Source: Chloroflexota bacterium | GTDB lineage: Bacteria; Chloroflexota; Dehalococcoidia; Dehalococcoidales; RBG-16-60-22 | DNA: 33,501 bases | Reading direction: 5' to 3' | Assembly: GCA_018829775.1 (NCBI GenBank) | Contig: JAHJTL010000115.1 | Location: 1-33,501, forward strand | Part shown: positions 2,704-33,501 of the stretch, one piece after another | How positions within the stretch are numbered: the first letter of the stretch is position 1 | How the letters are laid out: every line of letters begins with the position of its first letter | The notes under the pieces: model-generated | The model's input: the letters and a program-made list of their open reading frames with translations, nothing else | What the model was told of the DNA's origin: nothing | Database searches by the model: none | Made by a program: the position numbers and the translations under genes

Positions 2704-2704
2704 C

Positions 2705-12079: not shown

Positions 12080-12083
12080 TCAG

Positions 12084-14241: not shown

Positions 14242-14464
14242 GTGTGCGGTATCGCTGGCATACTGGGGCGAGGTTATCTGAAACCAATGATTGAAGACTA
14301 TCTCTCTGTTTCGTACCTAAAGAGGGACGGGTTTTTTTAATGCCGACATTGTACATAAAATGCTGCAAGATCACCTTACGCAGAAGGAATATAATTTAGG
14401 ATTGCTCTGGGCCATTTTTACCTTTCAGGTCTGGTGCGAGCAATTTATCAAGAGGTCGATTTGA
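14242..14464 (+). pseudogene. asnB: remnant of asparagine synthase (glutamine-hydrolysing), internally deleted and frameshifted
   Basis: GTG 14242, preceded by AGGTG, begins with CGIAGILGRG, the N-terminus of class II glutamine amidotransferases with the nucleophilic cysteine. After about ten codons the sequence jumps straight to what looks like the extreme C-terminus of AsnB-type proteins (a LKRDGFF segment, then NADIVHKMLQDH and LLWAIFTFQVWCEQF). Some 500 internal codons are therefore missing. In addition, a run of seven T (14332-14338) throws the frame and gives TAA at 14338-14340; with six T the frame would continue to TGA 14462-14464. Such asparagine synthase homologues are common in polysaccharide clusters. 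The TGATG overlap with the next glycosyltransferase is preserved. Confidence 0.8.
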
Positions 14465-15531: not shown

Positions 15532-15550
15532 CTAGCTCTGACTAAAAGAG

Positions 15551-16768
15551 ATGAAAAAACAACTTCTGTACATTGCCAATGCCAGAATTCCCACGGAAAA
15601 GGCTCATGGCTTGCAGATAATGAAGATGTGTCACGAGTTTGCCAAAAAACTACGTGTTGAATTAATTGTACCATGGCGAATTCAGACCAAGTTAATGAGG
15701 CAGGTGGCCGATGCTCACAAGTACTATGCCGTGGCAAAAACCTTTCATATCAGACGATTATTCAGCATGAATCTAACTCCACCCTTGGATAGCCGCCTTT
15801 CCCACTGGACTCGTACACTGCAGAGTATGTTGCATTGGCCGCATAGCTTGTACTTCGGTCTGATAAGTGCCGTCTACGCTCTTGTTCAGTCAGCGAAGCT
15901 GGTTTATTCCCGCGATTTCTTCTCCTGCCTTTTTCTTTATCTCTTCAAGCCCTTACACCGTAAGAGCGTTTTTTATGAAGCCCATGATTTCCCACTCACT
16001 AAGTTAGGGCGCAAATTAAGAAGCTGGGCAGTGCGTCATGTTGATGGACTCGTTGTGATCAGCCAGAAACTGGGAGAGCTTTACCAGAGCCAGGGTATTC
16101 CATCGGAAAAAATATTGGTCGCGCCGGATGGAGTTGATTTATCTCTTTTTTCAGTGAATCTCCAGAAAGAAAAAGCCCGAGAGGAATTTAAGATTCCCTC
16201 AGATAAGAAAATAGTCTGCTATACGGGCCACCTGTATCGCTGGAAGGGCACCCATATTTTAGCTCAAGCCATGAAAGAACTGGCTGACGAATGTCTTCTC
16301 TATGTCGTTGGTGGCACACCAAGAGATATCGAGGAATTTAAAAGGTTTATCAGCTCAAATCATATTCCAAACATAGTAGTTGTCGGTTATGTGCCACCCA
16401 CACAAATTCCTAAATATTTAGCCGCCGCCGATATCCTAGTCCTACCCAATACTTCCGAAGAAGCGATATCCAGGCTTTATACCTCCCCGCTGAAATTGTT
16501 TGAATATATGGCAGCACGGAGGCCTATCGTCGCCAGTGACTTACCTTCGATAAGGGAAATCCTGAATGAGGAAAACGCCTTGCTGGTGAAACCAGACGAT
16601 CCAACTGCATTAGCTAACGGCATGAGAAGGGTAATCAGAGACGATGAGATGAGTCAGAAACTAGCTGGAAATGCCTTCCGGGACGTTCAGTTTTACACCT
16701 GGGAGAGGAGGGCGGCTGGAATATTAGAGTTTATGGATAAAAATGCAGAAGTGGGAAAAGTTCCTTGA
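15551..16768 (+). CDS. glycosyltransferase family 4
   Basis: The 405-residue GT-B protein starts MKKQLLYIANARIPTEKAHG, an N-terminus shared by a recognisable group of capsule glycosyltransferases (IANARIPTEKAHGLQI). The C-terminal domain has VAPDGVDLSLF, VCYTGHLYRWKGTHILAQAM, YVVGGTPRDIEEF and TSPLKLFEYMAARRPIVASDL. The SPLKLFEYMA form is typical of this group, in which the first Glu of EX7E is not conserved. It begins 19 bp after the previous stop and overlaps the following methyltransferase by 26 bp. Its donor sugar is unknown. Confidence 0.83.
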   Translation: MKKQLLYIANARIPTEKAHGLQIMKMCHEFAKKLRVELIVPWRIQTKLMRQVADAHKYYAVAKTFHIRRLFSMNLTPPLDSRLSHWTRTLQSMLHWPHSLYFGLISAVYALVQSAKLVYSRDFFSCLFLYLFKPLHRKSVFYEAHDFPLTKLGRKLRSWAVRHVDGLVVISQKLGELYQSQGIPSEKILVAPDGVDLSLFSVNLQKEKAREEFKIPSDKKIVCYTGHLYRWKGTHILAQAMKELADECLLYVVGGTPRDIEEFKRFISSNHIPNIVVVGYVPPTQIPKYLAAADILVLPNTSEEAISRLYTSPLKLFEYMAARRPIVASDLPSIREILNEENALLVKPDDPTALANGMRRVIRDDEMSQKLAGNAFRDVQFYTWERRAAGILEFMDKNAEVGKVP

Positions 16769-17312
16769 TGAATGCATCAGGGAAATAGCAAAGGAGAACA
16801 AAATTCTGGATATTGGCAGCGGTTCTCCCTTTCAGAAAGAGATGAGGGAGTATAAGGACTGCTTTTCTACTTCAAAGTATTACGCATTAGATTATGACTA
16901 CAGTTATCACCCTGACATTGTTGGTGATATTCACAATTTACCTTTTAAGGATGGGTCAGTGGATGCGGTAATCTGCAAGGCTGTGCTTGAGCATGTCCCC
17001 GAGCCACAAACAGCGGTTGGAGAATGCCATCGGGTGCTGAGGAAGGGTGGAAAGATATTTGCTTATGTCCCATTCCTCCACGGCTACCACGGTGCTAAGA
17101 ACTATAAAGATTATTACCGATTTACTAAAGACGGAGTGATGTATATGTTTCGCCATTTCAATGTGGTTAGAATTGTGGAGGTCAGGGGATATTTCAGTAC
17201 CCTTTGCCTGTTTATTCCTATGAACAATTGGCTTATGCCGTTAACAAACTGGTTGGACCGCTTTATTGGCTATGGCGTTACTTCTGGCTATAATATATTT
17301 GCGAGGAAGTAG
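16743..17312 (+). CDS. class I SAM-dependent methyltransferase
   Basis: This short (189-residue) methyltransferase has SAM motif I ILDIGSGSPFQKEM, motif II YYALDYDYSYHPDIVGD and the signature NLPFKDGSVDAVICKAVLEHV. It then continues with HRVLRKGGKIFAYVPFLHGY and YRFTKDGVMYMF. The last segment is closely echoed in the next gene, indicating paralogy. ATG 16743 lies within the end of the glycosyltransferase gene (26 bp overlap) and no strong ribosome site is visible. The small size leaves little room beyond the catalytic fold. It probably methylates a glycan or lipid-linked sugar in the cytosol. Confidence 0.75.
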   Translation: MQKWEKFLDECIREIAKENKILDIGSGSPFQKEMREYKDCFSTSKYYALDYDYSYHPDIVGDIHNLPFKDGSVDAVICKAVLEHVPEPQTAVGECHRVLRKGGKIFAYVPFLHGYHGAKNYKDYYRFTKDGVMYMFRHFNVVRIVEVRGYFSTLCLFIPMNNWLMPLTNWLDRFIGYGVTSGYNIFARK

Positions 17313-17317
17313 TAGAG

Positions 17318-17965
17318 TTGAAGCAGCTACTAACTAATAAGATAACCAGAGGTGAGTTGAACAAGTTTCTAAAGACCCATAGTGGCGCTGGAAAAACACT
17401 GAACATAGGAAGCGGTGGTTTACAAAGTAGTAACTATTTCCCAAATGTCATTGGCTTAGATATTAGTAAAGCAGCAACGCCGGACATTTTAGGTGATTCA
17501 CATTATCTTCCGTTTAAGGAGGAGAGTTTCGATGTTATTTTGTGCACCGAGGTGCTTGAGCACCTGAAGCAACCCCAGAAAGCAATAGATGAAATGAGGA
17601 GAGTCGTGAAAAGGGGGGGGGAACTGCTTCTAACCACTCGATTTATCTTTCCCTTGCATGACACCCCATGTGACTATTTCCGGTACACTAAATACGGTCT
17701 AAGGTATCTACTAAGGGATTGGAACGTGGTTCAGATTACCGAAGAAACGGATACTATCGGGACCCTAGCTGTTTTGCTCCAAAGAATAGCTTATCAGTGT
17801 GAGGTTCTGCGTTTCAAACCGTTCAAAGGGCTTTTCCACTTGTGGGCACACTTAACAAAACGACTTGGATTCATAGTCACCAAAGAGTATGGTGTCTTCT
17901 ATGATCGCATTCTTGAGCAGAAAATAATGACCTCGGGCTACTATGTTGTCGCCATCAAAATGTAG
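17318..17965 (+). CDS. class I SAM-dependent methyltransferase with a poly-G tract
   Basis: The 215-residue protein starts at TTG 17318 with GAGGAAG upstream. It shows a motif I variant, TLNIGSGGLQSSNYF, then VIGLDISKAATPDILGD, LPFKEESFDVILCTEVLEHL and the paralogous YFRYTKYGLRYLLRDWN segment. Nine consecutive G at 17613-17621 encode Arg-Gly-Gly-Glu in the loop after the motif IV helix. A one-base slip there would frameshift the protein. It lies 5 bp after its paralogue and 10 bp before a third methyltransferase. Substrate unknown. Confidence 0.75.
   Translation: MKQLLTNKITRGELNKFLKTHSGAGKTLNIGSGGLQSSNYFPNVIGLDISKAATPDILGDSHYLPFKEESFDVILCTEVLEHLKQPQKAIDEMRRVVKRGGELLLTTRFIFPLHDTPCDYFRYTKYGLRYLLRDWNVVQITEETDTIGTLAVLLQRIAYQCEVLRFKPFKGLFHLWAHLTKRLGFIVTKEYGVFYDRILEQKIMTSGYYVVAIKM
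17613..17621 (+). repeat. homopolymer G9 tract inside a methyltransferase gene
   Basis: Nine consecutive G occur in frame as AGG GGG GGG GAA. Tracts of this length are known slippage sites that can switch genes on and off in surface-polysaccharide loci of some bacteria. Here the reading frame is intact at nine G. Phase variation is an inference only; a sequencing-length error is also possible. Confidence 0.6.
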
Positions 17966-17975
17966 TAGGTGAGTT

Positions 17976-18695
17976 ATGACAAAGGGGAAGTACATCCGAG
18001 GCGAATATGAACTCCGTGGCGAGTATCATAAGCAGCTGGACCCGGACTGGCCTTATTATCCTACATACTTGGCAAAGATGAAATTCATCAGAAGTTATCT
18101 ATGTAAGATTCCTCTAACTTATAAGATTCTTGACTTAGGTTGTGGGGAAGGTATTCTGTTAGAAGAATTCAAAAATCTTGGTTACAATATCATTGGTTTA
18201 GATCAGAATTATTCCTCTGAGTTTGTCATAAGAGGTGACATAAAAGAAACACCGTTTCCTGATCATGATTTTGATGTGATACTCTGTCTGGACGTTATTG
18301 AGCATTTGGATTATGAAAGTCAAAGGTCAGCAATAGCTGAAATAAAAAGACTATTAAAAGACAAGGGTATAGCCATTCTTACCATTCCTAATCTAGCCCA
18401 TTGTTACTCAAGGCTAAGGTTTCTATTAATTGGACAGCTTGACAGAACAGCTCGGATTGAGAAGCATCCTGGAGACAGACCAATTGCAGAGCACCTACAA
18501 CTTTTAAGACAAGAAGGCTTTAAAGTTATCCAGCGCAAAGGGCTGTTTCCTACCCTGCCTGTAATTTATCAGCTAATCCAAAGGTGGCCATCTAAAACTC
18601 TATGGCTTTATAACCTACTTAATAGATTGCTCCCCTTGGCTAACTATTGCTTTTTGAATATCCTTGTAGTCCAGAAAAAAGCCAGCAAGATTTAA
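17976..18695 (+). CDS. class I SAM-dependent methyltransferase
   Basis: The 239-residue product has a charged N-terminus, then SAM motif I KILDLGCGEGILLEEF, motif II IIGLDQNYSSEF, and TPFPDHDFDVILCLDVIEHL. The downstream IKRLLKDKGIAILTIPNLAHCYSR resembles type 11 methyltransferases that modify glycan termini. It starts at ATG 17976, preceded by AGGTGAG, 10 bp after the previous gene, and is the last gene on this strand before the convergent flippase gene. The coding sequence is noticeably AT-rich compared with the heptose and UDP-sugar genes. Confidence 0.78.
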   Translation: MTKGKYIRGEYELRGEYHKQLDPDWPYYPTYLAKMKFIRSYLCKIPLTYKILDLGCGEGILLEEFKNLGYNIIGLDQNYSSEFVIRGDIKETPFPDHDFDVILCLDVIEHLDYESQRSAIAEIKRLLKDKGIAILTIPNLAHCYSRLRFLLIGQLDRTARIEKHPGDRPIAEHLQLLRQEGFKVIQRKGLFPTLPVIYQLIQRWPSKTLWLYNLLNRLLPLANYCFLNILVVQKKASKI

Positions 18696-18789: not shown

Positions 18790-20022
18790 CTATCTAGTTA
18801 GTTTCCAGGAATAAGCAGAATCAAATGCCCGAGCCAGGGCTTTAGCCGCTACAATGCCGAGGATACCAAATTGTACCGCAAAGAGTACCAATAACACCAG
18901 CTCAAATATGGCAACAGCTACGTTGAGTTTGAACAGCTCTCTCGTTTTTCTCTGGGCTTGAAGTGCACCCCGACGCAATACGGTGGCCAGGGTTCCGAGA
19001 ATCACAGGAATAAAAAGAAGTTGTGTATAAAGAACCGAATCCAGATACTTACTAGAATACAACCAGGGTATTATATAAGGGCATAACAGGGCACCAATGC
19101 CACAGATTATGACCATACCCACTAACAGCCATGGTAACCTTCTTTTGACTTCATCGTATGCAACCTTTTCGTCCATAGTCGCAGTTTTGGGAAAGACCGT
19201 CTGGCTTATTGATGCAAGTAGCACAGTCGGTAGGTTGGCAATCATCACTGCGATGGAATAGATTGCCAAACCAGCGTAACCGAGCGCTACACCGATGATT
19301 AACTTATCAAAATGGAGCACAGCGATACTGATTGCCTGTATGCCGGTAAGTTGTTTACCGTAGGTTATTGCAGTTTTGTCCTCACGGCAACTCAAGTTGC
19401 CGGTTTTAACGGTGTTAAATAGAAAGACAATATGCAGTATGGTTGATGTGGCCAGGTAGGCGGCGACCACCCACAGTAAGTTTCTGGTGAAATATACGGC
19501 GAGTATTACGGCCAGCGTTAAAAAGACCCAATAGATAGACCGATATCTGGAAGACAGATCAAACTGCTGTCTGCCGTTCAGAAATGGATAGTAACTATCA
19601 AAGGACACGTGAAACGGAAAGAAAAGTGAGCTCAACAGGAAGCATTTACCCAGCAATGTTTCTCCACTGGAATAATAGTAGATTCCGATTAGAAGACATA
19701 CCGCAGCACCAATGAGGCTCCATTTGAATCTTGTTTTGGTGCCCTTAATAAATACTTGATCACGACCATTGGCTACCGCCTGCATAATAGCGGCGCCCAT
19801 GCCAGGTAGAGCCGATATCGCCAATATGCCTATAATGGAAAAAAAGTAGTTATACTGGCCATAATCTTCTTTGGATAATAGCCTCGTCAGTACGACTGAA
19901 GTTGCTAGGCCACTAAGAAGAATGACGCCCTGCGCAATTAGTAGATAGGCATTATTTTTTATATAATACTCTAGGTCTATCCCGAGCCACTTTCCGATTG
20001 TGTTGATAACGAAATTTTTCAT
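18790..20022 (-). CDS. Wzx-type oligosaccharide flippase (polysaccharide biosynthesis protein)
   Basis: The 410-residue, strongly hydrophobic protein begins with a short amphipathic stretch. The first membrane segment, AYLLIAQGVILLSGLATSVV, is followed by LTRLLSKEDYGQYNY, the hallmark start of Wzx/RfbX flippases of the MOP superfamily. About a dozen hydrophobic segments follow, with a late LGTLATVLRRGALQAQRKTRELFKL loop typical of the family. It would flip undecaprenyl-linked repeat units to the outer membrane face. It is the last gene of the minus-strand operon, 60 bp after the epimerase gene. Its length is slightly short for the family, but the C-terminal membrane segment looks complete. 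Confidence 0.82.
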   Translation of the reverse strand: MKNFVINTIGKWLGIDLEYYIKNNAYLLIAQGVILLSGLATSVVLTRLLSKEDYGQYNYFFSIIGILAISALPGMGAAIMQAVANGRDQVFIKGTKTRFKWSLIGAAVCLLIGIYYYSSGETLLGKCFLLSSLFFPFHVSFDSYYPFLNGRQQFDLSSRYRSIYWVFLTLAVILAVYFTRNLLWVVAAYLATSTILHIVFLFNTVKTGNLSCREDKTAITYGKQLTGIQAISIAVLHFDKLIIGVALGYAGLAIYSIAVMIANLPTVLLASISQTVFPKTATMDEKVAYDEVKRRLPWLLVGMVIICGIGALLCPYIIPWLYSSKYLDSVLYTQLLFIPVILGTLATVLRRGALQAQRKTRELFKLNVAVAIFELVLLVLFAVQFGILGIVAAKALARAFDSAYSWKLTR

Positions 20023-20082
20023 AGTTTGTTATCATCGCTGTGGAAAAAGCTACTCTTCACTGGAGAGTTTGCGTAAAAAGGC

Positions 20083-21009
20083 TTAATGTATATGTACAAC
20101 TGAGTCAATGTACCTGCGAAGACCCTCAGTGATTTCTACCTGTGGCTGCCATCCCAGCTCTTTTTTAGTTAGTTCAATATCTGCCCAGGTATTTTTTACA
20201 TCACCTTTTTGTTCTTCAACGTACGTTGCTTTTACTTCCTTATTCAGTAGGTTGCTGATTAGTTTGACTAGGTCATTGACACTAATCCGGCTGCCTCCCC
20301 CGATATTAAACACCTTGCCTTGAATCTCGCTTCTTGCCGCCAGAATATTCGCTTCAGTAACGTCATCTATGTACGTAAAGTCCCTCGTCTGATTTCCGTC
20401 GCCAAAAATGACAAACTCTTCACCATTCAATATCGCGGAGACCATCTTGTGAATGGCCATATCTGGTCTCTGTCCTGGTCCGTAAACAGTGAAATATCGG
20501 AGCGAGATTACCGGCGTTCCGTAGCTTTTATGATAAAGGTAACACAAATTTTCACCGGCCAGCTTGGTAACGCCATAGGGTGAGATAGGTCTTGGCGCAG
20601 CGGTTTCTTTCAATGGAAGTTCCGCATCACCATAAATGGAAGAGGAAGAGGCATAGATGAATTTTGTTAACTTTTCGCCTTTGTAGAATTCAAGCAACTT
20701 TTGCGTCGCCAAGATATTGTTCCGGACATAGATTTCAAATTTATCACCCCAGGAACCTCTTACCCCGGGCTGGGCGGCTTCGTGAAAAACACAATCGACC
20801 CGGGGGAATTCTTTCATGGCAAGGACATCGGCTTCAATAAACTCAAAATGCTTCTGCTTTAAGATACCGGCGATGTTTTCCCCCTTGATTTCTCTGGGGT
20901 AATAAGGGGCAAAGCAATCGATTCCCACCACCTCATAGCCCTCTTCCAGCAATCTCCCGGCAAGGTGAGAGCCGATAAATCCGGCGCAACCAGTGACCAA
21001 TGCCTTCAC
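20083..21009 (-). CDS. NAD-dependent nucleotide-sugar epimerase (extended SDR)
   Basis: The 308-residue SDR starts [20 protein letters not shown] (cofactor loop) at a GTG that overlaps the upstream gene's stop as GTGA. The catalytic region is [15 protein letters not shown] and [11 protein letters not shown], where Tyr and Lys are the catalytic pair. [21 protein letters not shown] is the GalE/UDP-glucuronate 4-epimerase type substrate segment. The RPDMAI sequence is common among UDP-glucuronate or UDP-glucose 4-epimerases. With a UDP-glucuronate producer next door, a UDP-GlcA or UDP-pentose epimerase role is plausible, but specificity is not certain. Confidence 0.78.
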
Positions 21010-21956
21010 GCTGTTATCTCCCGGTCCAAATTTACGCCTTTAAACCACTCGATTGTTCTCTTTAATCCGTCATGGAGTGAGATGCTCGGTTGCCACTGGA
21101 GCAGCTCCTGCGCCTTACTTATATCCGGCTGCCTTATCTTCGGCTCACCCTCAGGCAAGGAGCGGTTCTGTATATCACTCTCGCTGCCGGTAAGCTCCAG
21201 GATTTGGCGTGCCAGTGCCAGGATGGTTATTTCATCTGGATTCCCCAGGTTTATCGGCGTATTTATCTCTGATAGGGCAAGTTTGTAGATGCCTTCCACT
21301 AAATCCGAGATGTAGCAGAAACTTCTCGTCTGTGTACCGTCGCCAAATACGGTGAGCGGTTTCCCTTGAAGCGCCTGCGTGATGAAGGTTGGAACAGCCC
21401 GGCCGTCTTCTTTCTTCATCCGTGGACCATAAGTGTTAAAGATTCGGGCGATTTTGGTGTCGAGATGGAATTGGCGATGATAGGTCATGGTCAGCGCTTC
21501 AGCGAACCTTTTTGACTCATCGTACATCGAGCGAGGCCCGACCGGGTTGACATTTCCCCAGTACTCCTCTTTTTGTGGGTGTTCCAGTGGGTCTCCATAG
21601 ACTTCCGATGTTGAAGCCAGCAGGAATTTGGCTTGCTTTTCCTTCGCCATCTCCAAAACATTTAGGGTGCCCAACGAACTGGCTTTCATGGTTTCTAACG
21701 GCAGTCTCTGATACTCCGGTGGGCTGGCGGGACTGGCCAGATGAAAGACGTAGTCGATATCGGATTTTATAGCTGAAACATCGGTGATATCCTGCGATAT
21801 GAAGGCAAAGCCTTTATTCGGTATCAGGTGCTGTATATTACTCATCTCGCCGGTAAGCAGGTTATCCAGGCAAATTACTGAACATTGCCGGGCAAGCAGG
21901 AAATCGCAGAGATGAGAGCCGATGAATCCAGCGCCGCCGGTGACCAGTGCCTTCAC
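21006..21956 (-). CDS. UDP-glucuronate decarboxylase-like SDR (UDP-xylose synthase type)
   Basis: The 316-residue protein carries strong Uxs-type signatures: [43 protein letters not shown] and [20 protein letters not shown], with Tyr and Lys of the YxxxK pair in the last one. [11 protein letters not shown] follows. Enzymes of this group decarboxylate UDP-glucuronic acid to UDP-xylose, consistent with the UDP-glucose dehydrogenase encoded immediately upstream on the same strand. Family members usually have RSCYDE; here it is RSMYDE. The start is GTG at 21954-21956 and overlaps the dehydrogenase stop (GTGA). Soluble, with no membrane segment seen. Confidence 0.85.
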
Positions 21957-23242
21957 CGCCCCACCCCCTGGTATATGAAACCCAATCGTTTCATTTCATC
22001 GGGGTCGAACATATTTCGGCCGTCAATAATGACCGGCTGATTAAGAAGCTCTTTAATTTTCTTGAGGTCCATTTCTTTAAATTCGTCCCACTCAGTCACC
22101 ATAACCAGCGCATCACTGCCCTCCGCTACCTGATAGAGGTTCTGGCACAGCTCTATATCCGGGAAAATCTGCCTGATATTTTCCATCGCTTTTGGGTCAT
22201 AGGCTTTTATTTTCACGCCTTCCTGTTGCAGCTGCCTGATTATTTTTATCGCGGGCGCCTCTCGAATATCATCGGTGTCTGGTTTAAAAGCCAGACCCAG
22301 TATCCCGATGGTTTTGCCGTTTAGATTCCACAGCAGCTCCTTTGCCTTTTTAGCTACCTGGCGGCATTGGTGTTCGTTTATTTTGTCCACTGCTCGCAGC
22401 AGTTCAAAATCATAACCGGCTTCTTCCGCTATCTTGATAAAGGCAAGCACATCCTTGGGCAGACAGTATCCACCATAGCCTATTCCAGCGTCAAGAAAAG
22501 CACGACCTATCCTCTTATCAAGGCCCATCCCTTCAGCGACTTTAGTTACATCGGCTCCCACCGCTTCGCAGATATTGGCCAGGGCATTGATGTAGGATAT
22601 TTTCAGGGCTAAAAAGGCATTGGAAGCATGCTTGATTAGTTCGGCGGTCTCAATGTTGGTTATAATCATCGGCGCATCCAGCGGTTTGTAGAGCTCCCTC
22701 ATTAAATCGACCGCCCGTTCGCTCTCCACGCCGATGACAATTCTATCCGGGTGCATGAAGTCATGAACCGCTTTACCTTCACGCAGAAATTCCGGATTGG
22801 AAATCACGTCAAAGTCATGTTGATGGCGATTGCTAAGTTGCACCGTCCTTTTCACCCAGCCGCCGGTTTTCACCGGTACAGTGCTTTTATCCACGATGGC
22901 CTTATAGCTATCCATTGATTCTGCAATACGTTTGGTGGCCTTTTCCACGAATGATAAATCGGCGGCGCCATCCGGCCCCTGAGGGGTACCAACGCAGATA
23001 AAGACTACGTTTGCCTTTCCCACCCCATCCTCAACGCTGGTGGTGAACGAAAGCCTGCCTTCACCTACGTTTCGGTGCACCATCTGCTCCAAGTCCGGCT
23101 CGTAGAATGGGATCTGGCCCTTCTGCAGAAGGTCTATCTTTCCCGTATCGTCATCCACGCAGATTACTTTATTCCCCAAGTCAGCCAGGCAGGCACCAGT
23201 TACCAGGCCGACATGTCCGGAGCCAACGATGCAAACATTCAT
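21953..23242 (-). CDS. ugd: UDP-glucose 6-dehydrogenase
   Basis: The 429-residue protein has the complete UDP-glucose dehydrogenase layout. It runs from N-terminal [20 protein letters not shown] through [20 protein letters not shown] and the STVPVKTG loop to [14 protein letters not shown]. The catalytic cysteine is in [17 protein letters not shown] and the C-terminal domain has [22 protein letters not shown]. It oxidises UDP-glucose to UDP-glucuronate with two NAD+. The active-site motif is usually GGSCFPKD; here GGYCLPKD still retains Cys, Pro, Lys and Asp. The start ATG has AGAGAGGT upstream. It feeds the Uxs-like enzyme encoded next. Confidence 0.9.
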
Positions 23243-23256
23243 TATCGTACCTCTCT

Positions 23257-24204
23257 TCAGCTGCTAAGCTTACTTGTCTTTAAATAATAGGCGATAGTTT
23301 CGGCAAGACCGTCTTGAATTGACCACTGCGGTTCGTAGCCAAACGCTCTGGCTTTGTTAATATCAGCGAGACTTTGTGTTACTTCTCCAGGCCTTGATTC
23401 TTTATACACCAGTTCCAGGTCTTTTCCCATTAACTGCAGAATTTTCCGCGCAAGCTCGTTAATGGTGATGCTTTGACCGCTGCCGATATTATACGTGCTT
23501 TCAGCATCACTCTGTGCGGCTAAAATGTTAGCGTTCACCACATCCTTGACATAAATGAAGTCACGACTCTGATTACCGTCACCTAATACAACCGGGGGCT
23601 GGTTATCGGCTATCCTCTGGATAAAAGCTGGAACAACCGCGGAGTATTGAGATTGAATACCCTGCCTCGGTCCATATATATTAAAGTACCTCAGACATAC
23701 TGTGGAAAGCCCGTACAACTGGCGAAATATGCTGCAGTAGTACTCGCAGGCTAGCTTGGTGAGTGCGTACGGTGATATGGGGTCTGGTGGCAGTGCTTCA
23801 TTTTGCGGGATTGAGGTTACGTTACTGTACACCGATGAGGAGGAGGCAACAATAACCTTTTTAACGCCGTTATCCCGGGCCGCCAACAGTACTTTCAGTG
23901 TTCCGGTAATATTTACTTCGTTAACCAGTAAAGGGTTTTCAATGCTACTGTTTATGCTGGCTATAGCTGCCTGATGAAACACATATTCGGTTCCTTTAAA
24001 CAGCGTCTGCAGCAGCGCAAGGTCGGTCACGTTTCCCTGAACGAATTCCACAGAGTTCTTTTTCAGAAAATGGCCTATGTTCTCTCTCTTACCTGTGGAA
24101 AGGTCGTCAAGGACGATTACGTAGTAGCCGCGATTTTGCAGCTCTTCTGCCAGATGAGAGCCGATAAATCCGGCGCCACCGGTAACAACGACTTTCTTCG
24201 CCAT
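23257..24204 (-). CDS. NAD-dependent nucleotide-sugar epimerase (UDP-Glc/GlcNAc 4-epimerase type)
   Basis: The 315-residue extended SDR begins [20 protein letters not shown]. It shows FHQAAIASINSSIENP, the catalytic serine region ASSSSVYSNVTSIP, SPYALTKLACEYY with the YxxxK pair, and CLRYFNIYGPRQGIQSQYSA. The IASINSSIENP and GPRQ segments resemble WbpP-type UDP-GlcNAc(A) 4-epimerases, though UDP-glucose 4-epimerase is equally possible. It starts 2 bp after the nucleotidyltransferase stop. It is therefore the second gene of the operon, placed between sugar activation and Ugd. Confidence 0.78.
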   Translation of the reverse strand: MAKKVVVTGGAGFIGSHLAEELQNRGYYVIVLDDLSTGKRENIGHFLKKNSVEFVQGNVTDLALLQTLFKGTEYVFHQAAIASINSSIENPLLVNEVNITGTLKVLLAARDNGVKKVIVASSSSVYSNVTSIPQNEALPPDPISPYALTKLACEYYCSIFRQLYGLSTVCLRYFNIYGPRQGIQSQYSAVVPAFIQRIADNQPPVVLGDGNQSRDFIYVKDVVNANILAAQSDAESTYNIGSGQSITINELARKILQLMGKDLELVYKESRPGEVTQSLADINKARAFGYEPQWSIQDGLAETIAYYLKTSKLSS

Positions 24205-24206
24205 TT

Positions 24207-25085
24207 TTACGTTTTCTTTGAGGCAACGAATATATTCGTCTGGATTAACTGTTCCAGTGTCCCCACGTCAAACCAGGCATCAAGTTCCAGCAGATAGGCG
24301 GCAAGCATCGGGTTTTCTTCTCCGGCCAGCCGCTCTGTAAGGTTTCGCTCCAGGCTCGTGTCCGGTTTCCTGGGAAGATACGCGTCAATACGAGGAAGAA
24401 GGAAGTGGCTGTCAATAATACTGATGCCGGCATTCACCGCCGGTGCTTCGGGGACCTGGGTGATATCCGGCTTCTCGATGAAACCACGAACGATTTTACA
24501 TCCTTTCATTTCCTCAAACTGTCCGACGCCGAATCTGACAGCTTCTTCCCGCGGTACGGTTACAAACGCCACCGTCATTACCGTGCCCAGGGTTTCTTTG
24601 CAATGGTTGTGGTAAGTGATGATATCAGACAGGTTCATCTGCGGGGAAATACTGCCATCGGACAATGTCCTGTTGATGATATAATCGGTGTAACAGACCA
24701 GGAAATCATCTCCCAGTGCAGCTTTATCGCGCATGTGGTCGATGGCACTTCTCAAGTCGCCGCCTGTTCCCCATCCTGGAGCTACCAGGACATCGATTTT
24801 GAAATCCGGATTGGTATATTCGACTCTGAATCCAAGGGCATGAAACAGGTCAAGAATTTTATCAAGATGCTGCCTTCTTTTGTCAAGATAATTATCGAGC
24901 GTGGCAGCTATGGCTTTATTGCGCACCGCAATATAAAGCTCTTTAATCTCCGGTGCTCCGCCAAACCAGGAGAGCATATATTCCACAAGAGGTATGCCGC
25001 CAATTTGCTGAAATATTTTGGGGGTAAGATAGGTGAACGGGTAACATCGAGTGCCAGCACCGGCTGCCAGCAATATCGCTTTCAA
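24207..25085 (-). CDS. sugar-phosphate nucleotidyltransferase (NTP_transferase family)
   Basis: The 292-residue protein starts KAILLAAGAGTRCYPFTYLT, the GxGTR nucleotide-binding signature of glucose-1-phosphate uridylyl/thymidylyltransferases, followed by PKIFQQIGGIPLVEYML. A VCYTDYIINR segment sits where family members have the metal-binding LGD, and RGFIEKPD is the usual EKP motif. It would make an NDP-glucose from sugar 1-phosphate and feed the downstream epimerases and Ugd. The start TTG 25083-25085 is fixed by a perfect GGAGG six bases upstream; a longer frame to 25124 runs over the promoter and ribosome site. It is the first gene of the minus-strand operon. Confidence 0.8.
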   Translation of the reverse strand: MKAILLAAGAGTRCYPFTYLTPKIFQQIGGIPLVEYMLSWFGGAPEIKELYIAVRNKAIAATLDNYLDKRRQHLDKILDLFHALGFRVEYTNPDFKIDVLVAPGWGTGGDLRSAIDHMRDKAALGDDFLVCYTDYIINRTLSDGSISPQMNLSDIITYHNHCKETLGTVMTVAFVTVPREEAVRFGVGQFEEMKGCKIVRGFIEKPDITQVPEAPAVNAGISIIDSHFLLPRIDAYLPRKPDTSLERNLTERLAGEENPMLAAYLLELDAWFDVGTLEQLIQTNIFVASKKT

Positions 25086-25091
25086 TCGGAA

Positions 25092-25096
25092 CCTCC
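25092..25096 (-). promoter_or_regulatory. ribosome binding site GGAGG fixing a TTG start
   Basis: On the minus strand GGAGG is followed by a six-base spacer and TTG, which begins the KAILLAAGAGTR N-terminus. It decides the nucleotidyltransferase start against a longer upstream frame. Confidence 0.8.
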
Positions 25097-25112
25097 AACG
25101 TAATCGACGATA

Positions 25113-25141
25113 ATTATAACCCACTGAACTCGCATAAGCAA
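25113..25141 (-). promoter_or_regulatory. sigma-70-like promoter of the minus-strand sugar operon
   Basis: Read on the minus strand, TTGCTT (25141-25136) is followed after 17 bases by TATAAT (25118-25113). The -10 element matches consensus fully, while the -35 keeps only TTG. It sits just upstream of the nucleotidyltransferase ribosome site and back to back with the plus-strand promoter, leaving nine bases between the two -35 boxes. Transcription would run through all six minus-strand genes to the flippase. Confidence 0.6.
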
Positions 25142-25664: not shown

Positions 25665-26486
25665 ATGGAAATAACACCGGCATTATTTACGGGAATTGCT
25701 TTCCTGTCGCTTTTTTGCGAATACCTTACCGCCTCTATTGGAATGGGATATGGTACCACACTGACCCCGCTATTGCTTGTCTTTGGTCTGTCACCATTGC
25801 AGGTGGTGCCGGCAGTTCTACTGGGGTAGTTTGTCGGTGGCGTGGTTGGTGGCCTTGCCCATCACTGGCTGGGTAATATCAGGTTAGATTTCAGGCAGGA
25901 TGAGCAATTAATCAAAAAAAGACTGAGAGGACTGGGGTACTTACCCAAATCGCTGGATGCTAAAGTCGTTTTCATCCTCGCCGGGTTCGGGATTATCGGA
26001 GCACTGGTGGGTGTTTTTACCGCCGTAAATATCCCCACCATGGCGCTGATGACCTATATCGGCATCGTTGTCCTGGGCACCGGGGCCATCATTCTGCTAC
26101 GGAGGAACTACCGAGGCCCCATTTCATGGAAGGGTTTAGCTGGGATTGGGCTATTAAGTTCATTTAATAAAGGAATCAGTGGCGGAGGGTATGGTCCGCT
26201 GGTTACCGGCGGGCAGATAATAAGCGGGCGGGAAACGAGAAGCTCGGTGGGGAGCACGACGGTAGCTGAAACTGCGGTCTGTTTCGTGGGCTTTTTGGGT
26301 TATATGCTGATAAAAGGCGATATTTTCTGGAGTCTAGCCGCTGCTACCAGCATTGGCTCAATTATTGCCAGTCCATTTGCCGCGTTAACCGTTCGTAAAA
26401 TAAACTCGGCGAAGCTGAAAATAATCATCGGTTTTTCCACTGTAGCGCTTGGCACCTATATTTTACTAAAGACTTTCGTCTTTTGA
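25665..26486 (+). pseudogene. TauE/SafE-family anion permease interrupted by an in-frame TAG
   Basis: From ATG 25665 the frame encodes a membrane protein with the TauE/SafE layout. It has a first segment LTASIGMGYGTTLTPLLLVF and, after codon 54, TAG at 25827-25829. The same frame then continues with GGVVGGLAHHWLGNI and on to the second-half repeat SSFNKGISGGGYGPLVTGGQ. The total length of about 273 codons is normal for the family, so the TAG most simply replaces a sense codon such as CAG (Gln). TauE/SafE proteins move sulfite, sulfonates or other anions. A restart at GTG 25842 would give 214 residues lacking the first two membrane segments. The first cytoplasmic loop carries RLRGLGYL, the element also found in both RHH proteins. 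Confidence 0.78.
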
Positions 26487-26497: not shown

Positions 26498-27298
26498 ATG
26501 CTGGACTTAAAAGACCTTGAGAACCGAAGCATTTACGTTGTCAGAGAGGCCTATGCTGAATTTAAGAAGCCGGCAGTTCTCTGGAGCATGGGAAAGGACA
26601 GCACCACCATGCTCTGGCTATGCCGCAAGGCTTTCTTTGGTAAAATTCCCTTCCCGGTGATTCACATTGACACCAATTATAAGTTCAAGCAGATGTACCA
26701 GTTCCGCGACAACCTTGCTCGGGAATGGGGATTTGAATTAGTGGTGGCGAAAAATGAGAAAGCACTCAAAGATGGGTGCTCACCCGAGCAGGGTAAATTT
26801 GAGTGTTGCACCAGATTGAAAACAGAAGCCCTGAAAAATTGTCTGGAAGAGTACGGCTTCGATGCACTCATTCTGGCGATTCGTCGGGATGAACACGGGA
26901 TACGAGCCAAAGAGAGGTACTTCTCACCTCGAGATGAACAATTCAAATGGGACTACAAAGACCAGCCGCTGGAGATGTGGGACCAGTTCCAGGGACTTCT
27001 CAGCGCCGGCACTCACATGCGAATCCATCCCATATTGCACTGGCGTGAGCTTGATGTATGGGAATATACAAAGCAGGAAGAGATGCCGGTGAACCAGATG
27101 TACTTTGCCAAGAACGGACAACGATATCGCAGTCTGGGATGTGAACCCTGTACTCTGTCTATTGAGTCGAGCGCGGCCACCATAGATGAGGTTGTTGAAG
27201 AACTGAGGACAACCAGGGTCGCCGAGCGAGCGGGCCGGGCACAGGATAAGGAAAAGACGTTTACCATGCAGAAGCTTCGTGCGCTGGGCTATATGTAA
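26498..27298 (+). CDS. cysD: CysD-like ATP sulfurylase small subunit with APS-reductase-type cysteines
   Basis: The 266-residue protein belongs to the PP-loop family of CysD and PAPS reductases. It has the ATP loop WSMGKDSTTMLW (29-40), IHIDTNYKF, a KTEALK region, ILAIRRDEHGIRAKER (125-140) with the following FSPRD, and the CysD-type ending RVAERAGRAQDKE. Unusually it also has Cys103-Cys104 (FECCTRLKTEAL) and Cys215-x-x-Cys218 (LGCEPCT), the layout of the [4Fe-4S] cysteines of APS reductases. The reductase's C-terminal catalytic cysteine is absent, and it ends KLRALGYM. It would adenylylate sulfate with the GTPase encoded next. The start ATG 26498 has AAGGAGGA upstream. It is shorter than E. 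coli CysD (about 300). Confidence 0.82.
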   Translation: MLDLKDLENRSIYVVREAYAEFKKPAVLWSMGKDSTTMLWLCRKAFFGKIPFPVIHIDTNYKFKQMYQFRDNLAREWGFELVVAKNEKALKDGCSPEQGKFECCTRLKTEALKNCLEEYGFDALILAIRRDEHGIRAKERYFSPRDEQFKWDYKDQPLEMWDQFQGLLSAGTHMRIHPILHWRELDVWEYTKQEEMPVNQMYFAKNGQRYRSLGCEPCTLSIESSAATIDEVVEELRTTRVAERAGRAQDKEKTFTMQKLRALGYM

Positions 27299-27337: not shown

Positions 27338-28552
27338 GTGAATTTAAATGCGGTTATCGTCGGGCATGTGGACCATGGCAAGTCAACTCTTATCGGCAGA
27401 CTGCTCTATGATTCGGAGACATTGCCAGAAGACAGGCTTGCTGAAATCCAGAGACTTCTTGAAGAGTACAAAAAGAGGTTTGAGTTCGCCTATTTCCTCG
27501 ACTCCTTCGAGGAGGAATTAAAAGAAGAACGGACCATCGATACCACCAGGGTATTGTTCAGAGGAAAAGGAGGAAATTACTATACTATCGTCGATGTGCC
27601 CGGGCATAAGGAGTTTATCAAAAACATGCTCACCGGTGCCTGCCACGCTCAGGTTGCCGTTCTGGTCGTCTCAGCACCGGAAGGCGTACAAGAGCAGACC
27701 AGACGGCATGCGTTTCTCGTCCACATGCTCGGGGTAAAGAACATCATCGTTGTGGTCAATAAGATGGACCTCGAAACATACCAGCAGGCCGCCTTTGAGC
27801 GGGTGAAAACGGAGACATCCGCTCTTCTGTCCTCTCTCGGCTATTCACAGAACATATTTATCCCGATTTCAGCTATGGAGGGCGATAACGTTTATCTATC
27901 GTCAGAGCGCATGCCCTGGTATCAAGGGCCGTCACTGATTCAGGTACTCGATAGCACAGAACCTGAAGAAACCGGGGAAAAGCCACTCCGGTTCGTGGTT
28001 CAGGACGTCTATGGTGCGGATTCAGAAAGGGTTACCGTGGGGCGAGTAGAATCAGGCGCCTTGAAAACGGGAGATGAACTCGTCTTTCAGCCTTCCAATC
28101 TCAGAGGGAGAGTAAATAAGATAGTAATATTTCCGAAGGAAGTGGCTAAGGCAACATCCGGTGACAGTATTGGCATTCATGTGGACTGTGTACCGTCAAG
28201 AGGAGATGTTGCCGGACTGTACAGTAATCAGCCTGCAGCGGTCACCAGTTTTCTGGGCGAGGTGGCTTTGCTTGAGGGCACCCTCAATAAAGGCGACAAA
28301 CTGGAAATGAAATGCGGGACAAAACGGGCCAGCTGCGAAGTTGCTGAGATACACCAGAGAATAAACTCCGAAACGGGCGAGGTAATCGGCAGGGATATAG
28401 ACCGTATCGGGGAAAATGAGGCGGCAACCATTGTCTTCCGGAGCGAGCCGGTGGTGGTTGAACCGTTTTCTGAAATCCCAGAACTGGGCCGGTTTATAAT
28501 TACCCGAGGGAAAAAGAACATCGGTGCCGGGGTCATTTTGGAGAACGGGTAA
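27338..28552 (+). CDS. cysN: CysN/EF-1A-like GTPase, putative ATP sulfurylase large subunit
   Basis: The 404-residue GTPase has the P-loop GHVDHGKS (9-16), DVPGH (86-90), NKMD (141-144) and an [10 protein letters not shown]5 region. Two beta-barrel domains follow, starting near [10 protein letters not shown]. In CysDN the large subunit uses GTP hydrolysis to drive APS formation by CysD, and its position 39 bp after the cysD-like gene supports that role. Departures from CysN are an EF-1A-type P-loop (CysN usually has SVDDGKS) and a switch I region reading EERTIDTT, which lacks the Gly-Ile of the usual GITID. It is also shorter than CysN (about 470). The start is GTG 27338 with GGAGG upstream. 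Confidence 0.75.
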
Positions 28553-28553: not shown

Positions 28554-29348
28554 GTGATTTTCGTTTTGGGTATAGATGCCGCGACCTGGACAGTTATCAG
28601 ACCAAACCTGAGTCAACTGCCTACATTCAAGAAACTAACCGAGCTGGGTCAGGCTAGGGAAATAGTTATAGAAGAGGAGGAGAAACTAGAATCGCAGTCT
28701 CTGTGGTGTGGTATGTTTTCCGGGAAGACGCTGGAAGAGCACCGCCATGACAGCTGGGTCGTTGGAGACAGACTGGCCAGAAGAGAGGATATAAAAGTAG
28801 ATTTTATCTGGGACATTCTGGAGCGAGAGGGAAAGAAAGTCAGAGTACTGAACGTACCCTTCATTGTACCGCCTTATTCCTTTCGAGTTGACTTCAAGCC
28901 AGTAGGGTTCGGCCTGCCCACCAACGAAAAGGAATGGCAGGAAGAGTTAGAGAGAGTAAGCGAAAAAACCAGAGAGATGCTCGTCGAAAAGCCAGACCTG
29001 TTAATTGCGGTCTATACTCTTCTCGACCGCATCCAGCACTTTCACTGGGGTGAAGATTGTGTCCCTGCCTGGTACCGGAAGCTGGACGCGAAAATGGACG
29101 AGATTCTTTTTGACACCGGTTTCCTGGATAACAGGCAAAACAAACTTATTATTGTTTCTGACCATGGCATGTGTTCATTTGGGGAAGCCCGCATCCAGAC
29201 CCTGCCGAAGAAGACAGAGTGGGGGGAATTGAAAGGCGACCACCATGAAAATGCCGTACTTATTACGGTGAACGTTGATTACCCAATCAAAAGCCCCCAG
29301 GACATATTCCGGGCAGTGAGAAAGGAATTTAAAGCTTCCAGCAGTTAA
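28554..29348 (+). CDS. alkaline phosphatase superfamily phosphodiesterase/nucleotide pyrophosphatase-like protein
   Basis: This 264-residue protein has a compact alkaline-phosphatase-superfamily metal site: Asp8 in FVLGIDAATW, a Ser-rich ESQSLWCGMFSGKT segment at the nucleophile position, Asp158 and His162 in LLDRIQHFHW, Asp203-His204 in IIVSDHGM, and His230 in KGDHHENAVLI. Family members hydrolyse phosphate or sulfate esters or nucleotide pyrophosphates. It is short for the family (often 400 or more) and ends soon after the last metal motif. No signal peptide is visible, so it is probably cytosolic. Starting 1 bp after the GTPase stop, it may act on APS or a related nucleotide, which is inference. 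GTG 28554 is chosen because GGAGA lies upstream. Confidence 0.72.
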   Translation: MIFVLGIDAATWTVIRPNLSQLPTFKKLTELGQAREIVIEEEEKLESQSLWCGMFSGKTLEEHRHDSWVVGDRLARREDIKVDFIWDILEREGKKVRVLNVPFIVPPYSFRVDFKPVGFGLPTNEKEWQEELERVSEKTREMLVEKPDLLIAVYTLLDRIQHFHWGEDCVPAWYRKLDAKMDEILFDTGFLDNRQNKLIIVSDHGMCSFGEARIQTLPKKTEWGELKGDHHENAVLITVNVDYPIKSPQDIFRAVRKEFKASSS

Positions 29349-30622: not shown

Positions 30623-31050
30623 CTAGACATGCCTCCTTGTTCCTGAGTCATGCGCTGGTGCTCTTTGAACATGCATTTATTCATCACGACGAGCAATCCC
30701 GCATCTCTGGCCTTAGCTGCAGCCTCTTCATTCACAATTCCTTCCTGCATCCACACCGCCCTGGCCCCGATTTTAATGGCCTCCTCAACAATGGGCATAA
30801 CGTCTTCGGAGCGACGGAATATCTCCACCACATCCACTTTCTCCGGTATAGAACTCAGGTCAGGATAGCTTGTTCTGCCCAGTATCTCCTGGGCATTCGG
30901 GTTGACCGGAATGATATTGTAGCCCTGTTCTGCGAGGTATTTTGCTATCCCGTAGCTGGGCTTCTCTGGGTCGGAAGATAGCCCGACCACAGCTACGTTA
31001 CGAAATTCCTTGAGTATTTTTTCTTCGATACGTATCCTAATCTTCTCCAT
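30607..31050 (-). CDS. CoA-binding domain protein (YccU-like)
   Basis: The 147-residue protein is a single CoA_binding_2 Rossmann domain. The sequence reads NVAVVGLSSDPEKPSYGIAK, then YNIIPVNPNAQEILG, the central VDVVEIFRRSEDV and ARAVWMQEGIVNEEAAAKA, ending with VVMNKCMFKEHQRM. These are the conserved stretches of YccU/YneT-like proteins, which are homologous to the CoA-binding part of succinyl-CoA synthetase. The family's cellular role is poorly known. A conserved Cys in NKCMFKEH is typical. It overlaps the upstream ferritin-like gene by 14 bp and the downstream protease gene by 16 bp, so it belongs to the stress operon. Confidence 0.85.
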   Translation of the reverse strand: MEKIRIRIEEKILKEFRNVAVVGLSSDPEKPSYGIAKYLAEQGYNIIPVNPNAQEILGRTSYPDLSSIPEKVDVVEIFRRSEDVMPIVEEAIKIGARAVWMQEGIVNEEAAAKARDAGLLVVMNKCMFKEHQRMTQEQGGMSRWQTK

Positions 31051-31489
31051 AGAATAGCTGGTCGTAGAGGGTCTCCAGGCGTTTTTTATGCTTCAGCTCT
31101 TCATTTGTCAGATTGGCGCAAAGCTTTTTGGCCGCCTCTTCCCGCATCATGCCCATCATTTTGCGGTAGAAGTCCACCGATTCTTCCTCGCGTTTCATGG
31201 CAAAAATGAGCGTGTCCTGCAGGCCGGCGCCCTCTAGGGTATCACCGCCGGTCAGGTAATTGCTTATTTTGAGGTCGGCTATTTCATCCTGGTGCCACTG
31301 TTTTACCAGGCCTTTTTGCCTTAAGTCCTTCAGTTTATCGGCGTGCTTGGCTTCCTGCCGGGCAAGGTCTTTGAGGAGTTCTTTAGCGCCCGGGTCGTCG
31401 GTCTTTCGCTGCGCGGCCTCATACATGGCCTGTGAGGCGATCTCCTTATAGATGGCAGTATCCAGCACCTCGCTCAGTTCGTCAGGCAT
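31037..31489 (-). CDS. rubrerythrin-like ferritin-superfamily protein (no rubredoxin domain)
   Basis: This 150-residue four-helix protein has the two diiron half-motifs of the rubrerythrin/ferritin fold: Glu16 (YKEIASQAMYE) with Glu46-x-x-His49 (RQEAKHADKL), and Glu101/102 (KREEESVDFY) with Glu131-x-x-His134 (NEELKHKKRL). No rubredoxin CxxC knuckles are present at either end, so it would need a separate electron donor. Rubrerythrins reduce hydrogen peroxide in anaerobes. A ribosome site, AAGGTGGGTGAAG, precedes the start. The gene lies between the tandem ferritin-like gene (39 bp gap) and the CoA-binding gene. Confidence 0.8.
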   Translation of the reverse strand: MPDELSEVLDTAIYKEIASQAMYEAAQRKTDDPGAKELLKDLARQEAKHADKLKDLRQKGLVKQWHQDEIADLKISNYLTGGDTLEGAGLQDTLIFAMKREEESVDFYRKMMGMMREEAAKKLCANLTNEELKHKKRLETLYDQLFYGED

Positions 31490-31528
31490 TCTTCACCCAC
31501 CTTTTACAGAAGAGATAATAGCAAGCGA

Positions 31529-32368
31529 TTATTTACTTTCTTCTTCCAGCAGGTCGTTGAACACGTCAATGTGGTAGAGTTCATTATCGCGGATGCGGAA
31601 GAGCAGTTTTTTCAGGTCGGCATCGTCGGTTTCTTTGCCCGCCTTATCATACGCCTCGGCTACTTCTTTTTCGATTTTGATATCGGCCTTGAGCATATCC
31701 GTCGGTCTGGTTGACTGGTCTACCTCGGTATGTTCAATTACAGGATTGCCGCCACCGCTTGTCAGTTCCTCCGCCAACCAGCCGAGGTGCTGCATTTCAT
31801 TAATCGCCTGGTCCTGCAATTGCTCCTGCGCCTCCTCACTCTTGTTCATATAGGAGTGCAGGAGATACTGGAGGATAACCGTATATTCATGCTCGATGCC
31901 CCAGTTCAACGTTTTGGCGGTCTTATCCTGACGGTCGCCCCTGATATCCTCAGTTCCCCCACGCTTCGCTTTGTCCACGAAGTGGGCAAAGTTACCGTGA
32001 TGTGCCTGTTCGTCGGAAAGGATACGCTGCAGCAGGCGCTTTATCTTTGGGTCGTCGATAAGACTGATATGTTCTTTATACTGCTTTACAGCTCCTTCTT
32101 CCAGGCTCACGTCGTTCTGCATCCAATCGGAAACCTGTGCGCCGCCCATGCGCATGGTACCTCTCTCCAGACTGGGCACACCGCCAAGCTCAACGATTAC
32201 CTCCGCCAGCCAGTCGAGGTGACGCATCTCATCCCGGGAAATGGCCTCAATCTCGCAGGCCATCGCGCCTTCGCCTATGCCATAGGCGTGGTTCAGGTAC
32301 TGTATGATGGCGCCGTGTTCATCCTGAAGGTCTTTGTTCAGCAGCTCAATGATTTTGCTTCTGTCCAT
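31529..32368 (-). CDS. tandem-duplicated ferritin-like (bacterioferritin/Dps-type) protein
   Basis: The 279-residue protein contains two ferritin-like four-helix domains fused head to tail. The first half has Glu17-His18 (DEHGAIIQY), Glu47-x-x-His50 (DEMRHLDWLAE), Glu90 and Glu120-x-x-His123 (DEQAHH). The second repeats these as Glu159-His160 (EHEYTVILQY), Glu191-x-x-His194 (NEMQHLGWLAE), Glu233 and Glu263-x-x-His266 (NELYHI). Both diiron sites therefore appear complete. Ferritin-like proteins store iron or remove peroxide. The start ATG 32368 follows a strong TAGGAGGG ribosome site. It lies 20 bp after the fprA stop, so it is likely co-expressed with the oxygen reductase. Confidence 0.8.
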   Translation of the reverse strand: MDRSKIIELLNKDLQDEHGAIIQYLNHAYGIGEGAMACEIEAISRDEMRHLDWLAEVIVELGGVPSLERGTMRMGGAQVSDWMQNDVSLEEGAVKQYKEHISLIDDPKIKRLLQRILSDEQAHHGNFAHFVDKAKRGGTEDIRGDRQDKTAKTLNWGIEHEYTVILQYLLHSYMNKSEEAQEQLQDQAINEMQHLGWLAEELTSGGGNPVIEHTEVDQSTRPTDMLKADIKIEKEVAEAYDKAGKETDDADLKKLLFRIRDNELYHIDVFNDLLEEESK

Positions 32369-32388
32369 AGCAGCCCTCCTAACAAAGA

Positions 32389-33501
32389 TTAAATGTAGTT
32401 ATTTGCCTTGTGTTTGGCGGCAATGGCGTCCGCCAGGTTGTCCAGTGCCTTGAGGTCGGACTCTCTTGGAAACCCTTTGCACATTACCGGTTCCAGTACT
32501 TCAACTTTAAGATTTGGAATCATGGCGCTCAGCTGCTCCACTGCCCGGCTTCCCCAGCCGTAGGAGCCAATGATGGATATAAATTTGATATTGGGCCGGA
32601 GGGCGTTGGCCAGAAAAGCGGCGTAGGCGACCTTAGGATGGGGACCGACGAGCGCGGTAGGCGTGCCAATGACCACGGTGGCAGCGTCAACCAGTGACAT
32701 GGCCAGTTTACCTACGTCGGTGTCGCTCAAATCAAATTGCTTTACCGTAACCCCGCGCTGCACGAGTGCATCAACGAAGTGTGCAACCATTGTGCGGGTG
32801 CTGCCGTGCATGGAGATGTAAGGTAGAACAACAATGTTTTTCGGGTCATCAAACGCCCAGCTATGATATGCCCTGGTTATGAATTCAGGTCGGTTATGAA
32901 GAGGGCCGTGGCTGGGGGCAATGATGTCAACAGCATAGTTCTTCACCGTATCCAGGTTTTTCTGTAAACTGGTGCGGAACGGCATCATTATCTCGGCATA
33001 GTAACGTTTGGCCGCTTCATACAGTTGACCTTCATCAGTAACAAAAAGGTCGCTGGTCGCCAGGTGAGAGCCGAAGAAATCACAGGGGAACAGTATCTTT
33101 TCCTCTCTCAAATAGGTAAGCATGGTCTCCGGCCAGTGGACCCATGGGGCATGGATGAATTCCAGCGTCCTGTTGCCCAGGGATATCGTTTCCCTGTCCT
33201 CGACAGCTATGATTTGCTCCTCTGGAGCCAGCATCAAATCTACGAGCATACCCTGGCACTTAGGAGTACAAACAACCTTTGCTTCCGGATATCTAGTTAG
33301 CACTGCGGGCAGGGCACCGGAATGGTCCTGCTCAGCATGGTTGGTGATGATATAATCGATTCGGTCAATTCCAAGATGCTCCAGGTTATCCAGAAGAATA
33401 TCCGGCATGGCAGCATCCACGGTATCGACCAAAGCCGTTTTCTCACTGCCTTTGATGAGATATGAGTTGTAGCTTGTCCCGTCGGGAAGAGGTATCAGAG
33501 C
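32389..33501 (-). CDS. fprA: FprA-family flavodiiron protein (5' end outside window)
   Basis: The frame stays open to the last base of the window, so the true start lies beyond 33501. About 371 residues are present, beginning inside the conserved DGTSYNSYLIKG region. The beta-lactamase-like diiron domain shows NHAEQDHSG (HxExDH ligands), WVHWPETMLTYL, FPCDFFGSH and SHGPLHNRP. The C-terminal flavodoxin domain starts at IVVLPYISMHGSTRTMV with the FMN phosphate loop, followed by IGTPTALVGPHP and IIGSYGWGSRAV. Flavodiiron proteins reduce oxygen or nitric oxide to protect anaerobes. It is the first visible gene of the minus-strand stress operon, and its promoter would be outside the window. Confidence 0.9.
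   Translation of the reverse strand, partial: ALIPLPDGTSYNSYLIKGSEKTALVDTVDAAMPDILLDNLEHLGIDRIDYIITNHAEQDHSGALPAVLTRYPEAKVVCTPKCQGMLVDLMLAPEEQIIAVEDRETISLGNRTLEFIHAPWVHWPETMLTYLREEKILFPCDFFGSHLATSDLFVTDEGQLYEAAKRYYAEIMMPFRTSLQKNLDTVKNYAVDIIAPSHGPLHNRPEFITRAYHSWAFDDPKNIVVLPYISMHGSTRTMVAHFVDALVQRGVTVKQFDLSDTDVGKLAMSLVDAATVVIGTPTALVGPHPKVAYAAFLANALRPNIKFISIIGSYGWGSRAVEQLSAMIPNLKVEVLEPVMCKGFPRESDLKALDNLADAIAAKHKANNYI

Follow-up and report, generated by a model that had tools for sequence, protein, structure and literature searches.

A CysD-type ATP sulfurylase subunit with a putative iron-sulfur site of the APS-reductase type

The cysD locus and the class of its protein

The window, that is, the whole 33,501-nucleotide stretch of DNA that was analysed, carries a cysD-like gene preceded by a permease gene and followed by genes for a CysN-like GTPase and a phosphodiesterase (Table 1). 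The cysD reading frame, which opens with ATG behind a GGAGG ribosome-binding site with a 5-base spacer and runs to its stop codon, agrees to the base with the one delimited in an earlier sequence-only reading of this DNA. The GTPase scores below the cut-offs of both the CysN model (281.7 of 336.1 bits) and the EF-1A model (331.3 of 540.1), so its assignment as CysN rests on homology and adjacency; of the 83 loci examined, the window included, 58 have a member of this gene cluster close to cysD. The window also contains a large surface-polysaccharide locus.

Table 1. Coordinates of the cysD locus, its motifs and its surroundings within the window
Feature	Position	Strand	Description	Basis
cysD-like ORF	26498..27298	+	Short-form CysD-like catalytic subunit of heterodimeric ATP sulfurylase, 266 aa	PRK05253
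PP-loop ATP-binding motif SMGKDS	26585..26602	+	Residues 30-35	
Codons of Cys103-Cys104	26804..26809	+	First putative ligand pair (ECCTRLKTE)	Profile alignment
Codons of Cys215-x-x-Cys218	27140..27151	+	Second putative ligand pair (SLGCEPCT)	Profile alignment
CysN-like GTPase	27338..28552	+	EF-Tu/EF-1A-type, 404 aa, without a fused APS kinase; presumably the regulatory partner	Homology and adjacency
Type I phosphodiesterase (PF01663)	28554..29348	+	Alkaline-phosphatase superfamily, core residues intact; recurs near short-CysN loci	
TauE/SafE-family anion permease	25842..26486	+	Recurrent neighbour, 11 bases upstream of the cysD start	
Surface-polysaccharide locus	454..18695 and 18790..25124		GT4 glycosyltransferases, UDP-sugar dehydrogenases, epimerases, flippase, methyltransferases, SIS and HAD enzymes	
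Rubrerythrin, ferritin-like protein, ODP-beta-lactamase/flavodoxin (flavodiiron-type) protein	31037..33432	-	Three genes in a row	

The CysD-like protein contains a single Pfam domain, PAPS_reduct. It scores above the cut-off of the NCBIfam CysD-subfamily model PRK05253 (341.9 bits against 195), below that of TIGR02039, the model of standard long-form CysD (267.5 against 396.6), and far below those of the reductase models, with 64.4 against 235.3 for TIGR02055. By sequence its nearest solved structure is the P. syringae CysD, 1zun_A, with 45% identity over 192 aligned residues, and it shares with the CysD of the P. syringae and E. coli CysDN complexes the PP-loop, the RRDE..RAKER region, the C-terminal ERxGRxxD and the adjacent CysN. 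In contrast to 1zun, however, it lacks the insert of about 28 residues that standard CysD carries before the GC motif, at a point corresponding to the interval between Phe203 and Arg209. The absence of this insert and the score below the TIGR02039 cut-off place the protein among CysDs outside the long-form subfamily.

An AlphaFold model based on 81 sequences (pLDDT 88, pTM 0.87) matches 1zun_A best (Z 25.1, 1.7 Å over 192 residues), followed by sulfonucleotide reductases, among them 2goy_B (Z 21.3, 2.3 Å over 201 residues). TtuA-, NcsA- and LarE-type sulfurtransferases share the PP-loop ATPase fold, and some of them carry a [4Fe-4S] cluster, but they are weaker structural matches (Z about 11-12), have no CysN and act on tRNA or cofactor precursors rather than on sulfate.

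Comparisons across the family drew on 209 CysDs from bacteria and archaea, for which whole genomes were sampled from the window's phylum and from the phyla of Magnetospirillum, a planctomycete, Sporomusa and an ANME-1 archaeon. Ten residues (S30, G32, K33, D34, S35, R129, E132, R136, K138 and E139 in the window protein) are invariant in all 209, and the catalytic residues are unchanged in CysDs with and without the four cysteines considered below.

Four cysteines at the position of the APS-reductase cluster ligands

When a profile of 81 relatives was searched against all PDB sequences, Cys103-Cys104 fell on the CC of the APS reductases 2goy (gECCgirKiePLK) and 7lhr (hECCrlrKvvPL), and Cys215 and Cys218 on their GCePCT and GCaPCT, in agreement with the positions proposed in the sequence-only reading; the same columns in 1zun hold HT and GCYPL (C..L) in place of CC and GCxPC. 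The statement in that reading that E. coli CysD lacks these cysteines is accurate for three of the four, with HT for CC and GCWPL for GCxPC, and fails for the equivalent of Cys215, which is present. In the model, a confidently predicted helix (residues 100-119) begins shortly before Cys103 and Cys104, residues 211-220 are likewise confident, and both pairs fall inside the range superposed on the cluster-containing APS reductase 2goy. Lys108, at CC+4, occupies the position of the Lys beside CC in both reductases and is kept in all 157 of the four-cysteine CysDs in the set. In the P. aeruginosa APS reductase this Lys, Lys144, touches both the cluster and the substrate.

In its fold, its four aligned ligand cysteines and its Lys at CC+4, the protein resembles the assimilatory APS reductases CysH (P. 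aeruginosa 2goy, M. tuberculosis 7lhr). It differs from them in its CysD-type motifs, its CysN partner, its membership of a separate clade (100/100) and the absence of the C-terminal catalytic Cys; as had been noticed earlier, no cysteine follows residue 218. A further point of comparison is DndC, an APS-reductase-like protein of DNA phosphorothioation, whose [4Fe-4S] cluster sits in a region that corresponds to the one in 2GOY (PMC12193691); APS reductase itself binds its iron-sulfur cluster at the same superfamily site (PMC3125206). Unlike the window protein, DndC comprises 540 aa, has three ligands in common with APS reductase, and is partnered by DndA/IscS, DndD and DndE rather than by CysN.

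Retention, joint loss and ancestry of the cysteine site

In a wide scan with one genome per species, the best 80 of hundreds of relatives, which show 55-82% overall identity and come from distant phyla, retain Cys103 in 80, Cys104 in 79, Cys215 in 80 and Cys218 in 77 cases, a near-complete retention that is not due to chance. Their hosts include ANME-1, Methanosarcinales, Bathyarchaeota, DPANN archaea, Chloroflexota, Omnitrophota, Nitrospinota, Planctomycetota, Acidobacteriota, Magnetospirillum, Geomonas and Sporomusa, among others. Co-conservation, the check that the sequence-only reading had put forward, is thereby found in close homologues, including those beside CysN, and far beyond them.

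Among the 209 CysDs, both pairs occur in 157, neither in 47, CC only in 2 and CxxC only in 3, and by length and cysteine content there are 110 short and 47 long four-cysteine forms, 44 long forms without the full set and 8 short ones without it, counts that differ from natural frequencies in that the sampling leans towards relatives of the window protein. The 157/2/3/47 table gives a Fisher p of 1e-40 with relatedness ignored. For the four C103/C104-C215/C218 pairs, mutual information with average-product correction over 72 dereplicated sequences gives ranks 35-61 among 33,930 long-range column pairs.

The exceptions vary in kind. Three of the 44 long forms without the full set (L153, L161 and L162, Planctomycetota), which are the three counted above as CxxC only, replace the C-C ahead of the KT helix by C-x-x-C-S (CAYC, CAHC or CSYC), so that one cluster ligand has apparently been relocated and the cysteine count stays at four. 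The eight short forms include members of a small clade (L041, L042, L062 and L148) in which the fourth cysteine is replaced by Ile (GCMPI, or CxxI), with CS at the first pair in one member and VC in another; judged by these replacements, this clade represents decay of the site, and its existence indicates that the site is dispensable.

A maximum-likelihood tree, built without the four cysteine columns and with CysH as outgroup, separates CysH from CysD at 100/100 and places the window protein inside CysD. With a score above the PRK05253 cut-off and every checked CysD catalytic residue in place, this position supports the proposal that the protein is a CysD-type adenylylating enzyme, and speaks against the two further suggestions of the same reading, namely that it stands midway between the CysD and CysH families or is an enzyme of a separate kind.

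Within CysD, a short clade without the cysteines (L115-L119) stands beside a four-cysteine sequence (100/98), and a long SRN/GDxxC clade (100/100) is nested in long four-cysteine sequences (97/97). From these two nested clades, both well supported, the phylogeny indicates at least two joint losses of the whole site, both pairs together; a third change, of uncertain direction, is marked by the E. coli-type HT/CL group. Since the CysH outgroup carries the same four cysteines, a cluster-bearing ancestor followed by loss is the simpler reading, although the root branch is long. The cluster site was probably present in the common ancestor of CysD and CysH, and several CysD lineages, those of E. coli and P. 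syringae among them, probably lost it whole, so that the well-studied CysDs are best read as derived losers. A phylogenetically corrected test, of low power, could use only four independent pairs where the branches have support; CxxC followed CC in two to three of them, the reverse never occurred, and the result is not significant (p 0.25-0.5).

Several side observations concern individual lineages. In Chloroflexota, CysH proteins encoded near SRN-type CysDs (L008, L015, L018, L021 and L024) keep CC and have GCAPTT, in which the last APS-reductase cluster Cys is absent. In Planctomycetota and Bacillota, a group of short four-cysteine CysDs (L172 and L187-L196) carries a separate insertion, about 20 aa long, in the interval from residue 111 to residue 125, and the CC is preceded by three additional residues. 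The genome of Sporomusa silvacetica (G340) encodes both a short four-cysteine CysD (L177) and a long one of the cysteine-free type with YT/CL (L197), a good pair for a test of division of labour.

A predicted cluster in sulfate activation and its significance

Altogether, we consider it probable, at roughly 0.78, that the window protein is the CysD of a GTP-dependent ATP sulfurylase carrying a [4Fe-4S] cluster on Cys103, Cys104, Cys215 and Cys218 at the APS-reductase site, with a structural and electrostatic role, a probable sensitivity to oxidants, and an origin ancestral to CysD and CysH. That a cluster would be bound is strongly supported by the aligned, co-conserved cysteines, which lend weight to the earlier proposal of an APS-reductase-type site in a CysD-type enzyme. 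In the accessible portion of the open-licence literature, no description of a CysD cluster or of these cysteines was found.

In the proposed mechanism, CysD would adenylylate sulfate, forming APS and PPi from ATP and sulfate, and the adjacent CysN would drive the reaction by GTP hydrolysis. The cluster, held by the two cysteine pairs, would not act as a reductant, given that the catalytic Cys is absent; it would most likely link the CC helix to the C-terminal GCxPC loop, set Lys108 and the local charge for binding of sulfate or APS, and render the enzyme sensitive to oxidants and iron supply, as a by-product or as a form of control. Because the catalytic residues stay the same whether or not the cysteines are present, the cluster would tune or stabilise the enzyme rather than define its chemistry, and the most economical account gives it a structural and electrostatic function at the sulfate pocket.

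Three other readings have to be weighed. In an otherwise ordinary CysD, the four cysteines could be a structural or thiol-switch site, with zinc bound to them or as a redox-active disulfide pair: their number leaves the metal unfixed, as a zinc site or a disulfide pair also needs four, and the CxxI clade, which has Ile as its last ligand and in two members has lost a CC cysteine as well, indicates that the site can decay. This reading is nevertheless rather unlikely, in that the adjacent Cys-Cys at the helix start, the GCxPC and the Lys at CC+4 reproduce the APS-reductase arrangement in every column, at a site where the superfamily members APS reductase and DndC bind an iron-sulfur cluster (PMC3125206; PMC12193691). 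The cysteines might also be a vestige, kept by descent in a protein that once bound a cluster and is now a plain ATP sulfurylase, as the lineages that dropped them with catalytic residues unchanged could suggest; near-invariance across distant phyla at 55-82% identity, among the best 80 of hundreds of relatives, and a relocated ligand that holds the count at four in three planctomycete proteins argue that the cysteines are not neutral and make a vestige very improbable.

Equally hard to sustain is the view that the protein is a reductase or sulfur-transfer enzyme, CysH- or DndC-like, that resembles CysD. Its fold and cluster site are those of APS reductase, the [4Fe-4S] cluster of DndC occupies a region that corresponds to the reductase's (PMC12193691), and no other PF01507 protein was found in the window genome. 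Against this stand the missing C-terminal catalytic Cys, the TIGR02055 score of 64 of 235 bits, the position in the CysD clade beside CysN, and the relatives in sulfate-assimilation loci, where CysH has a gene of its own nearby and fusions of CysNC length are present.

Two gene contexts of CysD were distinguished. In the assimilation context, CysD is accompanied by sulfite reductase, CysH and a CysN of 600 or more aa, the length of CysNC (GTPase with fused APS kinase). In the window-type context, CysN is short, and a TauE permease is often present together with a type I phosphodiesterase of the alkaline-phosphatase superfamily, which occurs within 4 kb in 21 of 33 short-CysN loci and in none of the 16 long-CysN loci or the 27 loci with CysH or sulfite reductase. 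The model of the phosphodiesterase is poor (pLDDT 65), and its fold match to the ENPP/NPP family supports the superfamily only. As a recurrent module, short CysD, short CysN and a PF01663 protein with an intact metal/nucleophile core are found mostly in archaea and Chloroflexota, near polysaccharide genes (the window and L032, L033, L035, L037, L038, L041, L043, L044, L045, L046, L048, L050, L053, L055, L058 and L062).

Neighbouring genes are rich in glycosyltransferases, sugar-nucleotide enzymes and flippases. In the window genome (G000, C115; 95.6% complete), searches found no match to APS kinase (PF01583), though CysDN is encoded, no second PF01507 protein, and no match to Sulfotransfer_3 (PF13469), the sulfotransferase family covered; a second PF01507 protein was likewise not found in 11 of 18 genomes with loci of the short-CysN/phosphodiesterase type. 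The polysaccharide neighbours and the phosphodiesterase, together with the lack of a detected second PF01507 protein or APS kinase, suggest that CysDN of the window lineage serves surface-glycan sulfation rather than cysteine synthesis. A speculative and rather doubtful extension is that, in this lineage and in many archaea, an iron-sulfur CysDN supplies a sulfation route with APS as the direct donor. The phosphodiesterase would then transfer (or hydrolyse) the sulfuryl group for a surface polysaccharide, and APS kinase, PAPS and a classical sulfotransferase would play no part. A few genes away from the CysDN operon, the rubrerythrin, ferritin-like and flavodiiron-type genes make up an oxidative-stress set typical of an anaerobe, as would fit a cell where a labile cluster might survive.

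Bacteria activate sulfate to a large part through CysDN, whose biochemistry is known from CysDs that have no cluster. The four-cysteine form is widespread, and many sulfate-activating enzymes may thus be unrecognised iron-sulfur proteins, a possibility that might explain poorly behaved recombinant CysDN produced in air. Joint loss of both pairs around a fixed active site amounts to a natural experiment, through which the role of the APS-reductase cluster could be tested in a non-redox enzyme. If the prediction is true for many lineages, sulfate activation would depend on iron and oxygen, as APS reduction does.
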